Origin: Pseudomonadota bacterium
GTDB taxonomy: Bacteria; Pseudomonadota; Gammaproteobacteria; Steroidobacterales; MnTg04
Assembly: GCA_022572885.1 (NCBI GenBank)
Contig: JACZVC010000025.1
Location: 1 to 42,012 of the forward strand
Direction: 5' to 3'
DNA: 42,012 nt
The notes beneath the pieces are model-generated. The model made no database searches, was not told the DNA's origin, and saw only the letters and a list, made by a program, of their open reading frames with translations. Positions 3,073 through 9,338 of the stretch are shown here, piece after piece; within the stretch, counting starts at the first letter, position 1, and the number at the start of each line of letters is the position of its first letter. A program made the translations under genes and the position numbers.

Positions 3073-6000
3073 ATGGCTGAGCATATATTGCGCGTGATCG
3101 GACAAAGCGAGCTGTTCGCCGGGCTCGATCCGATATTGCTGCGCAAAATTGCTGACGTCGCACAGCGGACGAGCCTCAGCGCCGGCGAAATTCTGTTCCA
3201 GCAAGGCGACCCGGCGGATGCCGTCTGGGGCGTGTTGTCGGGCCGCATCACACAGACGATGCGCAACGAGGACGGCCGCGAAATGACCGTTGATGTCATT
3301 GAGCCGGGGCAGGTTTTTGCCGAGGTTGCCGTCCTCGATTGGGGCCCGCGGCGTTTCGAGGCGGTTGCCGCCGAGGACAGCTCGCTGTTTCGGATCAAAC
3401 GCCGTCAGTTTCTTGAGCTGTTGCAGACCAGCCCGGAACTGTGTTTCCGGGTGTTCGCGCTGTTGTGTTCGCACTTGCGCGGCACCAGCAATGCCCTCGA
3501 AGAGGCAGCCTTGCAGAAATTTCCCGCGCGCCTGGCCAAAAGGCTGACGGCCCTGGCCGCAAACCATGGCGCCGGCCCGGCCGGGAAGGCGGCGATTGCC
3601 GGGGCGGCTGTATTGCGCATTTCGCAAAGCGAGCTGGCGCGCTTGATCGGGGTCAACCGCGAAGCCGTGAATCGACACCTGCGGGCATGGGAGAAGCAAG
3701 GCTGGCTCACGCTCAAACGCCGACAAATTGAAATCAACGACCTGGCCGCATTGGCGTCGTTGGCCGCGCCGACGGACAGCAGCAACGGCATTGCCGGCAA
3801 GCGGCTCATGTTCAAGGTTCCGGATGGGCTGCCGGAGCACCGTGGCGGCAAGTCCGCGGCCGTCTCCCCAATGCATGCGCGAACCATCCGTGATATGCGC
3901 AACGTGGGTCTGATGGCGGTGGTGGTCAGCGATTATTCCCGCGCCATGATGGCCGACGCCGCGGGTACGCTGAAATCCCTGTCGACCGGTATCGCGAGCA
4001 TCTATAAAGCCGTACGCGATTGCGGCGGCACCGTCATCGGCCAAGCCGGCGACAGCATCATCGCCAGGTTCCCCGATGCATTGGCGGCTTTGCGCGCAGC
4101 GAAATCGATCCAGAAAAAAATTGCGCCCCGCTCGGCGACCGCGCCCGCCGCAAAGACGCAAGCGCTTGCCCTGTTCCGCCTGGGCGTGCACGCCGGCGAT
4201 ATCGTCGTCGACGGCGACAGGTACGTAGGCCCGGCCATCAGCATCGCCCTGCGCGTCGCCCAGTATGCGGAACCCGGCGATGTCTACCTTTCCGGAGTCG
4301 TGCGGGAACAAGTCAAGGCAGCGTCCCGCATTGAGTTCCGCTTTCTCGGCAAGCAAAGGTTTCGGGGTATCGAGCAGTCGGTACCGATTTATTCGGCCCA
4401 ACCGGTTCCCGTTTCCAGATGGCTTTGGACGCGTGTCGATTCCCTGCTCAGCCGTCGGCTGCGGCCGGCGGCGGCGCTTGGCGCCGCCGTGGTGCTGATG
4501 GCGGTGGTCTGGGTGGCGGCACAGCAATTTCAGCAAGACGCCCTGGCGACGGTTCCGACTCAGTCCGTCGCCGTGCTGCCGTTCGAAAACCTGAGCGCGG
4601 CCCCGGAGGATGCCTTCCTGGCCGACGGCCTGTCCGAGGAACTTACCCGCGAGCTGATGGGCCTCGAGGGTCTCAAGGTCACGGGGCGCAATTCGGTGCA
4701 GTACTACAAGGGGCGCGACGACGATATAGGCACGATCGGCAAGATGCTGCAGGTTGCCTATGTGCTCGAGGGCAGCGTCAGGAAACTGGGGGATAACATT
4801 CGCGTTACGGCACAGTTGACCCAGGTCGCGAACGGCTTTCGCGCCTGGTCCGGGACCTACGACAGCGATGCGGACAACATCTTCGCAGTCCAGCGAAAAA
4901 TTGCCAGCAATGTAGCGCAGGTCTTGGAAATGCGCCTCGACGCCCCTGGTCAGAGCAACCGCACATTGCCGCTGACGAGCGACTCCGAAGCCTATATGCT
5001 TTTTCTCCAGGCGCGGTATCTTTTTGGTTTACTCATGCAGGCGGATGCGCTGAAAGCCCTGCCGCTCCTCGACCGGGCCATCGAGCTCGATCCTGAATTT
5101 GCGGAAGCCCATGCTCTGCTTGCCATCATTTATCACGGTTTGGCGCCGGCAGATGAATCGTTGCCCTTCGATCTGCAGGAACGAACCAAGCGGAGCAATG
5201 CAGCGCTGGCCAGGGCTTTGTCACTGCAGCCGAATTCGTCGAAAGTGCTTGCCGCGGCCTCGCGCATTATGGCCAGAGACGGTGATCACGAAGGCGCGCG
5301 GCAAATGGCGGAGCGCGCCGTGGCCGCAAATGGCAACGATCCGGACGCCCTCTGGGCGCTGCGTATAGTTCGTTCGACCGCTGACGATTGGGCCGCTGCC
5401 CTGGAGATTCTGGACAGATTGATACGCCTGGAACCCATCTCCATAAGAGTGCTGATGAGCTACGCAATGGGTCTCCGCCAAGCGGGCAGATTGGATGAGG
5501 CCTGGGCGATGGCTGACCGGGCCAGGACCCTGAGCGCCAATCCCCGCCCGGCAAGCTCGCTGCTGGCAGCTATTGCACTGGCTCGCGGAGAGGTCGTACA
5601 AGCCATAGATTTGAGCATCCTCGGTCGCCCCTATGGCAATTACCTCGATCTCTGGTTTGGCCTTAAGGACGTGGACCTGGATAGCATACAGCCGAGGATC
5701 CGTGCCGCCGGTCCGTATGCTTATCTGGGTGAATACGACAAGGTTCGTCAGATCGTTTTGGAATCTTTTGCCAACTCGTTCGATGCACCCGAATATCTCA
5801 TCGCGCGGGGAGAGCTCGAGGTTCTCGCCGGCAACTACGAGCAGGCGATCGAGTTCTTTGATCGAGCCCGCCCGAAGTTGCCCTTTGGAGATACAGAGCT
5901 TTTCTGGTCCAAAACTTATTCCGCGTATCTGAGCTGGAGCCGGAAATCGTCGCCATCGCTGGCGCTGCTTTATGCATACCGGCAAACCGGTCAGCAGGAC

Positions 6001-6318
6001 ATGGCGCAAGAAATGGCCGCCCTGATCGAGCGCGAAATTGCCGCCCGGCGGCAAAAATTCGACTCGGTCGACGGCACAGGCGACCACCAGCTTCTTTACC
6101 GGGAGGCAGAGCTGCTGGCGATCGAGGGGCGGGTGGACGCGGCAATCGCCGCACTCCGCCGCTGGCAGAGGTTCGATCCTGAACAGTTCAACTATCTCAA
6201 GAGCGATCCTTTCCTGGTCAGCCTCCATGACGAAGCCGAGTTCTGGCAGATCGTCGCTGAGGTGGAAACCTGGTTGGCAACGGTCCGCCAACAGGTCAAG
6301 GCAGCGCGATCAGGATAA
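3073..6318 (+). CDS. Crp-type regulator fused to class III cyclase, TM segment, TolB-like and TPR domains
   Basis: A 1081-residue multidomain protein. Residues about 1-120 form a cyclic-nucleotide-binding domain (AEVAVLDWGPRR corresponds to the phosphate-binding cassette). Residues about 180-215 form a Crp-type winged HTH (SELARLIGVNREAVNRHL). Residues about 280-450 form a class III nucleotidyl cyclase domain. One transmembrane segment lies at about 463-485. A TolB/FlgO-like domain follows (VAVLPFENLS, LEGSVRK), then TPR-like helical repeats to the C terminus. The cyclase keeps both metal-binding aspartates (Asp287, Asp327) and the transition-state arginine (Arg394). The lysine and aspartate that recognise adenine are replaced by Gly323 and Arg383, and the conserved asparagine by Ser390. 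It may therefore be inactive, use another nucleotide, or pair with another subunit. A membrane-tethered DNA-binding regulator is inferred. In-frame ATG at 3058 and TTG at 3034 are alternative starts; none has a strong ribosome site. Confidence 0.88.
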   Translation: MAEHILRVIGQSELFAGLDPILLRKIADVAQRTSLSAGEILFQQGDPADAVWGVLSGRITQTMRNEDGREMTVDVIEPGQVFAEVAVLDWGPRRFEAVAAEDSSLFRIKRRQFLELLQTSPELCFRVFALLCSHLRGTSNALEEAALQKFPARLAKRLTALAANHGAGPAGKAAIAGAAVLRISQSELARLIGVNREAVNRHLRAWEKQGWLTLKRRQIEINDLAALASLAAPTDSSNGIAGKRLMFKVPDGLPEHRGGKSAAVSPMHARTIRDMRNVGLMAVVVSDYSRAMMADAAGTLKSLSTGIASIYKAVRDCGGTVIGQAGDSIIARFPDALAALRAAKSIQKKIAPRSATAPAAKTQALALFRLGVHAGDIVVDGDRYVGPAISIALRVAQYAEPGDVYLSGVVREQVKAASRIEFRFLGKQRFRGIEQSVPIYSAQPVPVSRWLWTRVDSLLSRRLRPAAALGAAVVLMAVVWVAAQQFQQDALATVPTQSVAVLPFENLSAAPEDAFLADGLSEELTRELMGLEGLKVTGRNSVQYYKGRDDDIGTIGKMLQVAYVLEGSVRKLGDNIRVTAQLTQVANGFRAWSGTYDSDADNIFAVQRKIASNVAQVLEMRLDAPGQSNRTLPLTSDSEAYMLFLQARYLFGLLMQADALKALPLLDRAIELDPEFAEAHALLAIIYHGLAPADESLPFDLQERTKRSNAALARALSLQPNSSKVLAAASRIMARDGDHEGARQMAERAVAANGNDPDALWALRIVRSTADDWAAALEILDRLIRLEPISIRVLMSYAMGLRQAGRLDEAWAMADRARTLSANPRPASSLLAAIALARGEVVQAIDLSILGRPYGNYLDLWFGLKDVDLDSIQPRIRAAGPYAYLGEYDKVRQIVLESFANSFDAPEYLIARGELEVLAGNYEQAIEFFDRARPKLPFGDTELFWSKTYSAYLSWSRKSSPSLALLYAYRQTGQQDMAQEMAALIEREIAARRQKFDSVDGTGDHQLLYREAELLAIEGRVDAAIAALRRWQRFDPEQFNYLKSDPFLVSLHDEAEFWQIVAEVETWLATVRQQVKAARSG

Positions 6319-6450: not shown

Positions 6451-9045
6451 TCAGAAAGCAGCCGAAATTCTCGCGTACCAGAAACCGCCATTGAAACCAA
6501 ATGGTGAGGTCAGCGATCCCGTCACACCCAGAAATTGCAAGACCGGGTCTTGCTCGGCATCCGGTGCGTTATCGAAGATGTTTTCCCCACCGATGGTAAT
6601 GGTGAAGTTATCCTGGAACGAAAATCTCGCTTCGATATCGACCAGAATTTCAGCACCGTAAGACGAAACATCGGAGGCATCGCCCGGGCTGAACAGACCG
6701 CCGGTGGTTTTCCATTCGCCATAACGGTTGAAGCGCACGTAACCACCGAACAACCCGCCGGTGTCGTAATCGAGCGTCAACGTCGTCCTGTTTTCCGGCA
6801 CCTGGTTTTCCAGGTCGAATACCCGTGAGGCATTGATCGAACCCGGCGCAACATTACTGACATCCTGGTCGTTGATGTTGTGCCGCAAATCCGCGGTCAA
6901 CACACCGGTTGCCAGTTCGAAATCGGTCGTGATCGCGAGATCCAAACCGCTGACATCGGACTCGAAGCCATTGACAAAAAAGTTGGCAATGCTGCCATCG
7001 AGCAGGTTCGCGTTGGGTATGCCCGCGGCTGTCAACAACACCACATCAGCCGCAGTAATGGTGTTATTGAGCAACGCCAGCCGGTCTTCGATGTTGATAT
7101 CGTAATAATCGACCGTCACGCTGGTGTTGTCCGATGGCAAATACACCAGGCCCAGCGTGAAGCTGGTGGATTCTTCCGGCTTCAGCGGCTGAGACCCCAG
7201 GACGATGGCAACCGGATGACTGACCGGGTAGACGCCGCTGGGAATCAGGTTACCGGCGGTATCGGCGCTGGTGGTGATGTTGAGCGTGTTCACCTGGCCC
7301 GGGGTGGGCGCGCGGAACCCGGTGCTGAAAGTCGAACGAATCGCCACGGTATCGCTCACCTCCAGCCTTGCGGATATTTTAAAATCGGTAGAGGAACCAA
7401 ACTCGTCGTAATCCTCAAAACGAATTGCCGCGCCAGCCGAGAATTGATCGGTGAAGTCCGCCTCCACATCGATATAGCCTGCGAAACTCTCGCTGTCGAA
7501 GCTGCCGGAAGATTCGACCGGGAATCCCTGGAAGCCGTCCGATCCGACGCCAAAGAACGCCGCTGTCGGCCCCGCTTCTATCGAAGCCTGGTCGCCCGCG
7601 CCGATGATGTAGGTTTCGTCGCGAAACTCAGCGCCAAAGGCCACGTTCAGCGGTGACACCAGGCCATCGACATCGAATGTTTTCACAAAATCGACGTTGA
7701 TGCCGGTCTCTTCCTGGGTCAGCGTCCCGGGACGGAAGCTGGTCGGCGACAGCGAACCCAGGCTCGGGTTGATGGTCTCGGAGATGATGTAATCCACTTC
7801 GCTTTCCGCAATGCGCCCGCGGATATCCCACCTCAGACCACCGGCGGACTCGCCGCGGATACCGAATACATAGGACTGGTCCTTGATAGTCGCCCCGAAA
7901 TTCGGGTTGTAGCCACCCGGGAACATGGTGTGGATCGGATTGAGCAGCACGAAACCGCTGGGGCTGGCCACATCGGCCGTCAAGTAATTGGACGGGGTCA
8001 GACCGGCGGCAATAATGTCGTCGACCAGCGATTGCGGCGCCGGATCGGGCAAAAAATCCCCATCGTTATCGGTTTGCAGGGTCGTGCGTGCAGCAAACAT
8101 CTCTGCCGGCGGCAACACCGGACCCCGATAGAAGAAATCGGAAATCGTGTCATTGTCTGAATAGCCGATATTGCCGTACAGTTCCACATTGTCATTGAGT
8201 TCATAAGCACCGTTGACAAAAAGCTTGATAGTCTCCACGTCCGGGTCACCCCAACGCTGACCCAAACCATTCAACGGCACCAGCGAAGCTCCGACAACCC
8301 CTGCCACTTGCACCGCATCGGGACGAGCGACACCGCGTGAGGTTTTGTCGGCCGTCGAATATTCAATGGTGGTGTTCAAAAAACCTTTGCCACCCAGGCT
8401 GAAGCCCGCGTTGGCGCCAATGGTCGTGCGAGCACCGTCGCCCTCATAATATTCACCCGTTTGTGCAAAAACGGTGACGCCTTCGTCAGCGTCTTTCAAA
8501 ATCACGTTAATCACGCCGGCGATGGCATCGGAGCCATACTGTGCCGACGCACCATCGCGCAAAACCTCAACTCGCTTGATCGCACCAGAAGGCAGTGCGG
8601 AGAAATCCACCGCCTGCGCACCCTGGTTTACCGTGCCCAGGGGGGCCAATTGCAGATTGACCAGTGCCGAGCGATGGCGCCGGGTACCGTTGACCAGCAC
8701 CAGGGTTTGATCCGGCGACAGATTGCGCAGGGTCACCGGGCGAATGAATGCAGTGCCGTCAGCGATCGGAAAGCGCTGGGTATTGATCGATGGCGAAATT
8801 TTCGCCAGACTTTCGGTCATATCGAAGGTGGCTTGATTGGCCAGTTCCGCGCCACCGAACACATCGATAGGCGAAAGGGTTTCCGTTGGCGATTGCCCTT
8901 CTTTGCGCGTACCGGTAACCACAACCTCCTCGATTTGATCGGCCCCTTCGGCTTCCTGGGACAACACCGTCGAGGGCGACATTGCAACGGACGCGGCAAC
9001 GACCAACGATAATGCGCAAGATTCAAATTTTGTAATTAGTTTCAT
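6451..9045 (-). CDS. TonB-dependent outer-membrane receptor
   Basis: An 864-residue precursor. The ATG at 9045 has GGAG six bases upstream and gives a signal peptide of about 29 residues; the frame extends further upstream but without this support. The mature N terminus carries the TonB-box-like EEVVVTGTR, followed by the plug domain (about 45-170), with hallmark segments VLVNGTRRHR and VEVLRDGASAQYGSDAI. The rest is a 22-strand-type beta-barrel rich in Asp/Asn/Gly turns and ends in a C-terminal phenylalanine (WYARISAAF), the outer-membrane insertion signal. Such receptors import large or scarce ligands (siderophores, cobalamin, glycans, peptides) using energy from TonB-ExbB-ExbD. The ligand cannot be read from the sequence, and no transport or degradation genes accompany it. 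It is convergent with the Crp-cyclase gene and may belong to the same acquired island. An ExbB/ExbD pair is encoded about 4 kb away but lies in a lipid A operon. Confidence 0.95.
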   Translation of the reverse strand: MKLITKFESCALSLVVAASVAMSPSTVLSQEAEGADQIEEVVVTGTRKEGQSPTETLSPIDVFGGAELANQATFDMTESLAKISPSINTQRFPIADGTAFIRPVTLRNLSPDQTLVLVNGTRRHRSALVNLQLAPLGTVNQGAQAVDFSALPSGAIKRVEVLRDGASAQYGSDAIAGVINVILKDADEGVTVFAQTGEYYEGDGARTTIGANAGFSLGGKGFLNTTIEYSTADKTSRGVARPDAVQVAGVVGASLVPLNGLGQRWGDPDVETIKLFVNGAYELNDNVELYGNIGYSDNDTISDFFYRGPVLPPAEMFAARTTLQTDNDGDFLPDPAPQSLVDDIIAAGLTPSNYLTADVASPSGFVLLNPIHTMFPGGYNPNFGATIKDQSYVFGIRGESAGGLRWDIRGRIAESEVDYIISETINPSLGSLSPTSFRPGTLTQEETGINVDFVKTFDVDGLVSPLNVAFGAEFRDETYIIGAGDQASIEAGPTAAFFGVGSDGFQGFPVESSGSFDSESFAGYIDVEADFTDQFSAGAAIRFEDYDEFGSSTDFKISARLEVSDTVAIRSTFSTGFRAPTPGQVNTLNITTSADTAGNLIPSGVYPVSHPVAIVLGSQPLKPEESTSFTLGLVYLPSDNTSVTVDYYDINIEDRLALLNNTITAADVVLLTAAGIPNANLLDGSIANFFVNGFESDVSGLDLAITTDFELATGVLTADLRHNINDQDVSNVAPGSINASRVFDLENQVPENRTTLTLDYDTGGLFGGYVRFNRYGEWKTTGGLFSPGDASDVSSYGAEILVDIEARFSFQDNFTITIGGENIFDNAPDAEQDPVLQFLGVTGSLTSPFGFNGGFWYARISAAF

Positions 9046-9338
9046 TGATGTCTCCAAGTTTTCACGACCAGGGAAATAGCAAGCGAACATGATGAAAGGA
9101 ATGCCATCCCCTGTGCAGAGCCTGCAATATGACTCAATGACTTTTTATACGCAAAAAAAAGGGTGGTGTACAGACACTTGGCTGGCGGATTGTCCGGAGG
9201 TTTCTCAAATGGCCTCCACCGATGAGATCTGGTCACTCATTTATTGTTTATTTTCAGTTATATACTATTACTTTCTAGAGTCATTTATCGATAAAGGCCG
9301 CACCATACTTTGTACTGCCGGCGCCCGTGCCGCTTTCT
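9046..9338. other. Upstream region of the TonB receptor; AT-rich
   Basis: These 293 bases hold the leader and promoter of the TonB receptor (minus strand) and the sequence beyond the kdsB stop codon. The part at about 9235-9295 is clearly more AT-rich than the surroundings. On the minus strand, TATAAA near 9148-9153 is a possible -10 element for the receptor, without a convincing -35. No Fur box was recognised. A short plus-strand frame crossing this area shows no protein-like features. Confidence 0.5.

Follow-up and report, generated by a model that had tools for sequence, protein, structure and literature searches.

The window analysed here is a stretch of 42,012 nucleotides from a gammaproteobacterial genome of the order Steroidobacterales (contig JACZVC010000025.1 of assembly GCA_022572885.1), and this study concerns one gene in it, located at 3073..6318 on the plus strand. 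The encoded protein joins a Crp head, a class III nucleotidyl cyclase-like domain, a transmembrane (TM) helix, a TolB/FlgO-like domain and TPR repeats in one chain. On balance, and by no means firmly, we favour the reading that it is a membrane-anchored one-component regulator, in which a Clr-type Crp protein has been fused to its partner cyclase-TM-TolB-TPR protein and the cyclase, now dead, serves as a relay. The architecture, the residue losses, the conservation pattern and the gene linkage on which this reading is built were read from the sequences.

The open reading frame starts with the ATG at 3073 and includes the stop codon at 6316-6318, and the frame check of the window revealed no internal stop across its 1081 codons. 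The single polypeptide, its coordinates and its domain order were as the first-pass annotation, made from the letters alone, had described them. Pfam models above cut-off placed cNMP_binding (PF00027, 2.6e-23) at residues 34-119 and HTH_Crp_2 (PF13545, 6.2e-15) at residues 152-229, and several TPR families were matched as well. By this domain content, the predicted protein is a member of the Crp/Fnr family. The cyclic-nucleotide (cNMP)-binding domain, whose pocket is altered, was assigned to 3073..3498 (plus strand, as for all parts of the gene; residues 1-142) on the basis of PF00027, the residue comparison and the match to the Clr structure 7PZA described below. The helix-turn-helix (HTH) domain (PF13545) was assigned to 3499..3768 (residues 143-232), and it is followed by a variable linker at 3769..3900 (residues 233-276).

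A search for the same domain order in other genomes, a check that the first-pass annotation had advised, yielded two more fusions. The same fusion was present in the congener G004 (JADFSO010000050, isolate B92T3L11; L005/L088), with 39% identity over 1003 residues to the contig end. The third, found by searching genome contigs, is a protein of 1065 residues with 34% identity on JAOUCZ010000016 (L087), from a metagenome-assembled genome named 'Lysobacterales bacterium'. The linker is 23-30% identical among the fusions. The fusion was not seen in three congeners of lower completeness (73-81%), and searches covering the order (396 genomes), the class (369) and the phylum (398) turned up no fusion other than those of the window genome and the congener. 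Therefore, the architecture is rare. The three fusions formed one clade both by cyclase (support 100/99) and by Crp (93/82), with long branches and an unsettled sister group. It had been considered that an assembly error near position 3800 joined two separate genes. Such a chimera was rejected, since the same junctions recur in two other assemblies and the third-position G+C content stays even from the Crp part through the linker and the cyclase to the TolB part.

The cyclase-like domain lies at 3901..4407 (residues 277-445). The Pfam cyclase model had no match in the fusion protein. When the protein was searched against the PDB with phmmer, class III cyclases were recovered, 3mr7 at 8.8e-17. 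An AlphaFold model of the isolated domain, built on a three-sequence alignment, had a predicted local distance difference test score (pLDDT) of 78.7 and matched 3mr7 with a template-modelling score of 0.80, followed by Rv1900c, Ma1120 and CyaC. According to the model, the class III cyclase fold is retained in the fusion protein. To assign the catalytic residues, the alignment columns were set by 3mr7 together with a little over 40 cyclases from the order and class. Taking the six canonical positions in the order first metal, Lys, second metal, Asp, Asn and Arg, the window protein has V G D R S R (V284, G323, D327, R383, S390 and R394), and the other fusions have K G D R Q R and S W E Q N R. 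The first-pass annotation had placed Gly323, Asp327, Arg383, Ser390 and Arg394 correctly; however, Asp287, which it took for a metal aspartate, falls in the column of the Gly before Tyr/Phe, and the column of the first metal Asp is occupied by Val284 ('AADVAGYS/FADIxGFT'). Of the two metal aspartates thought to remain, the protein thus has just one. The comparison of fold and residues that it had recommended gave a class III fold with four of the six catalytic positions changed.

In the three fusions, the first metal Asp is replaced by V, K or S, and the Lys and Asp of the base-recognition pair are gone in all of them. The Arg394 position is kept in all three, the Asp327 position in two and the Asn position in one. 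Both metal Asp residues and the Arg are present in every well-aligned unfused cyclase, a set that leaves aside L113, a degenerate protein, and L158, whose row is not a true cyclase alignment. The active site of class III cyclases spans two chains, one of which supplies both metal residues and the other the base-recognition pair, the Asn and the Arg. Of these residues, the window cyclase holds a single metal aspartate and the Arg, and it should therefore be unable to complete either half-site, whether paired with itself or with another cyclase. For the fusions as a group, the metal half is short of its first Asp, and the half for base recognition and the transition state is short of the Lys, the Asp and, in two of the three, the Asn. 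The cyclase domains of all three fusions should therefore be dead and, judged by these residues, the fusion protein does not qualify as a working class III enzyme. Furthermore, the cyclase ranks among the least conserved segments of the fusions, with 27-33% identity versus 45-58% in the Crp and HTH domains, as is expected if DNA binding is constrained and catalysis is not. Pseudo-cyclases occur elsewhere in the order, too: a 962-codon frame that has no Crp head (L113:2187-5072, G136) was noticed to contain another degenerate cyclase-like domain, which reads R T P S D S at these positions.

The Crp head was changed at the messenger end. When a profile of the three fusions was compared with solved structures, the first match was Clr (7PZA, 5.6e-35). 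The cNMP-contact motif of Escherichia coli CRP is E...RS...R...TS (PMC4005916), and the pocket of Clr includes G85, E86, R95 and S96 (PMC10127613). In the window protein, Glu84, Arg93 and Thr138/Ser139 correspond to E72, R82 and T127/S128 of E. coli CRP, and the equivalents of S83 and R123 are changed to Arg94 and His134. Against G85, E86, R95, S96, T140 and T141 of Clr, the window protein has A, E, R, R, T and S. The contact set thus reads E..RR..H..TS in the window fusion, and I..RR..G..ST and E..RR..H..TT in the others: Ser83 is replaced by Arg in all three fusions, Arg123 by His, Gly and His, and E72 by Ile in one fusion, P0005. Measured against the set E72..R82-S83..R123..T127-S128, the fusion head is by sequence not a canonical cNMP-dependent Crp. 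The DNA-recognition residues R-E-x3-R (R196-E197-x3-R201 in the window protein) were kept in all three fusions, as in canonical CRP, and the segment GVNREAVNR was invariant; the unfused relatives described below differ here, with R-Q-x3-Q/H at the recognition helix.

The membrane part begins with one strong hydrophobic segment (4465..4521, residues 465-483), assigned as a TM helix by hydropathy and charge count. Four Lys/Arg residues precede it and none follows it; this positive charge before the helix predicts an N-terminus in the cytoplasm. The TolB/FlgO-like domain (4555..4977, residues 495-635) and the TPR region (4978..6315, residues 636-1081) are accordingly predicted to be periplasmic. 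The Pfam match of the former was weak (FlgO, E=0.09), and the domain was assigned by homology searches, in which many TolB/FlgO-TPR proteins from both the genus and the order matched the segment as homologues, with E-values as low as 1e-47. The NCBIfam CadC model matched residues 466-695, covering the TM helix, the TolB-like domain and the first TPRs, at 1.2e-9. Since this score is far under the curated cut-off, it indicates homology and not CadC membership. No match to the OmpR-type winged helix (PF00486) was found in the fusion protein. Therefore, judged by its head, the protein is not a CadC, yet it probably works like one. In the window genome itself (G000, contigs L034-L044), a large expansion of TM-TolB-TPR proteins with differing heads was observed, of which at least 15 were sampled; two of these carried OmpR-type winged helices and the others had unassigned N-terminal regions.

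The first-pass annotation overlooked that this Crp subfamily usually lies beside a separate, intact-looking cyclase gene. Crp proteins close to the fusion head (E 1e-33 to 1e-52) were found in 25 of the 396 genomes of the order, two of which carry the fusion; the next-best Crp proteins in the genomes compared were at about 1e-19 or weaker. In 17 of the remaining 23 genomes, the unfused Crp gene adjoins, with gaps of up to about 1.3 kb, a class III cyclase gene that encodes both metal Asp residues, and in four of the six genomes without such a neighbour the Crp gene lies at a contig end. Granting 20 cyclases per genome, the binomial chance of this adjacency is about 1e-15, a figure to be read with the genomes not being independent; the adjacency was seen in nine genera and four families. 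The two genes are in tandem, divergent or convergent orientation, which points to linkage and not to one fixed operon. Six of the adjoining cyclases are of the (TolB-)TPR type (L094, L095, L096, L108, L109 and L110, the 249-codon frame of L108 covering the cyclase part only) and 11 are CHASE2-cyclases (L145, L146, L147, L149, L150, L152, L154, L194, L198, L199 and L200). That the subfamily usually adjoins a cyclase gene explains where the fusion came from.

Nearly all unfused Crp proteins checked read G-E..R[T/S]..R, the exception being the divergent second copy L146b, and by this their pocket should be fit to bind a cyclic nucleotide. By analogy with Clr and its cyclase CyaD1, each unfused pair may form a circuit: the membrane cyclase would produce a cyclic nucleotide, and the neighbouring Crp protein would read it. 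In 10 of the 11 adjoining CHASE2-cyclases (L145, L146, L147, L149, L150, L152, L154, L198, L199 and L200), Asp/Arg stands in place of the Lys/Asp base-recognition pair, and both metal Asp residues, the Asn and the Arg are kept. The same pair, likewise with these four residues kept, was found in the cyclase-TolB-TPR proteins L101-L107. In the Crp-adjoining cyclases, the Asp/Arg pair hints at an unusual substrate. Apart from this, two inverted Crp-subfamily genes about 6 kb apart were observed to flank the CHASE2-cyclase gene at L146:266-8108 and at L200:6279-13850, and the L146 interval also holds a FecR/TPR/TonB-receptor protein. In the genome of the third fusion (G396), a second, unrelated Crp gene is divergent to the gene for a 298-residue cyclase (L112:3912-5653).

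Among the closest known systems is the Clr locus of Sinorhizobium meliloti. In this organism, clr, the CHASE2 cyclase gene cyaD1 and the FecR-domain gene smc02177 lie together (PMC5498481), and the receptor cyclases of Clr are CyaD1, CyaD2 and CyaK, with a clr-cyaD1-smc02177/smc02178 locus (PMC5498481, PMC10127613). The unfused relatives likewise pair a Crp gene with an adjoining membrane cyclase gene and, at L145:84-6488, the genes for Crp, a CHASE2-cyclase and a FecR/TPR protein lie in a row resembling clr-cyaD1-smc02177. The window protein, however, is a single chain with a TolB-TPR-type cyclase that lacks catalytic residues; whereas a Clr-type module consists of separate Crp and cyclase genes, both are one gene here, and the other cyclases of the window genome (found with PF00211) sit on other contigs. 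Class III cyclase-TolB-TPR proteins of Rhizobiales and other Proteobacteria share the cyclase-TM-TolB-TPR order and detectable homology, but they have no Crp head, and the intact ones examined keep both metal Asp residues. Mycobacterial proteins of the Rv0386, Rv1358 and Rv2488c type also carry a class III cyclase and an HTH in one chain, the HTH being LuxR-type and accompanied by an ATPase module; they are not known to have a Crp domain or a TM-TolB-TPR part. CadC/ToxR-type regulators have a cytoplasmic DNA-binding head, a single TM helix and a periplasmic part, a layout that is also predicted for the fusion, whose putative periplasmic part is TolB-like with helical repeats; they differ in that the fusion head is a Crp plus pseudo-cyclase and not an OmpR-type winged helix. 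No description of the Crp-cyclase-TolB-TPR architecture was found in the searchable literature, outside which most subscription papers lie. What appears new here is the combination of known parts and the loss of both messenger ends.

For the topology, signal, relay and messenger independence of the fusion, we infer the following course. A messenger-using pair of Crp and cyclase would have been fused, and the enzyme and receptor functions would have been lost afterwards. The periplasmic TolB-TPR part may bind an envelope ligand or partner, and this binding would alter the dimer state or the orientation of the pseudo-cyclase. The pseudo-cyclase, making no messenger, would hand the change to the Crp head as a dimerisation or relay module, and the head would bind palindromic sites near the membrane with no need of cyclic AMP, giving a CadC-like switch overall. 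That both chemical ends are broken and the DNA-binding surface and the membrane sensor are kept makes it the simplest account that direct coupling replaced the messenger. Of the roles offered by the first-pass annotation, a dead cyclase carrying a signal to the HTH appears the best supported by the residues. The more specific proposition, that the fusion of Crp to cyclase was followed by decay of both catalytic site and messenger pocket, leaving a messenger-free switch with the pseudo-cyclase as a mechanical relay between a periplasmic sensor and the Crp head, seems to us evenly balanced. DNA binding at the membrane, to which attention had been drawn, is not unusual: CadC/ToxR-type regulators bind DNA while membrane-tethered, and the window genome itself encodes winged-helix-TM-TolB-TPR proteins of that type. 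Direct contact between Crp and cyclase has a precedent in CyaC and Clr of S. meliloti, whose contact requires ATP (PMC10463352).

Several points weigh against this account. The fusion is known in three genomes only, and in P0005, truncated by the contig end, the first 67 Crp residues are unseen. The window protein still has Asp327 and Arg394 in its cyclase and Glu84, Arg93, Thr138 and Ser139 in its Crp head, which leaves room for weak nucleotide binding at either site. The predicted structure of the whole protein had a pLDDT of 51 and gives no domain contacts. Moreover, CRP-type palindromes were not enriched in the window (5 found versus 10.9 expected by chance).

The kept residues bear on two alternatives. 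In the first, the cyclase is likewise dead, but cNMP made by other cyclases of the cell would still be bound by the Crp head, and the protein would integrate cytoplasmic cNMP with a periplasmic signal. This is unlikely, yet it merits consideration, as four contact residues are retained in the window head and the genome has two CHASE2 cyclases and an FHA-type cyclase with canonical metal and Lys residues as well as a separate canonical CRP (L050); against it, the S83 and R123 positions are changed in all three fusions and E72 in P0005, whereas the unfused relatives keep them. Alternatively, the pseudo-cyclase may itself be the sensor, binding a nucleoside triphosphate or another small ligand without turnover and tuning the Crp head. 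The kept fold, the Arg394 and Asp327 positions and the ATP required by CyaC and Clr (PMC10463352) would agree with such a role, which we nevertheless regard as doubtful, since the metal and base-recognition positions vary among the fusions (V/K/S, G/G/W and R/R/Q) at a cyclase identity of 27-33%. The earlier proposal of another nucleotide could hold for binding without turnover, but not for turnover. An autocrine loop, in which the Crp head senses the product of the cyclase in the same protein, had also been suggested. Although both domain types are in one chain and the unfused relatives pair a conserved-pocket Crp with a cyclase bearing both metal Asp residues, the first metal Asp, the Lys/Asp pair and two cNMP contacts are lost in all three fusions, and such a loop is highly improbable. 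It is just as improbable that the gene is a functionless product of decay or misassembly, as the long branches of the cyclase parts might suggest, because the same junction and open frames recur in three assemblies at 34-39% identity, with an invariant recognition helix and even codon-position G+C content.

As for the surroundings, no conserved neighbourhood of the fusion was seen: the neighbours of the fusions differ, and the divergent neighbours are unrelated. In the window, the fusion gene converges on a TonB-dependent receptor gene at 6454-9090 on the minus strand. L087:2926-4023, which lies two genes upstream of the third fusion, encodes a homologue of pentameric ligand-gated ion channels (Neur_chan_LBD, 3.4e-22).

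The linkage of the Crp subfamily to cyclases with unusual base-recognition residues is the most useful side result of this analysis. If the proposed mechanism is true, the unfused, ancestor-like state and the fused, messenger-free state could be compared within one order. It would also mean that a class III cyclase domain can lose its catalytic chemistry and persist as a signal relay, and that a head of the Crp type can be driven by periplasmic sensors of the CadC type.

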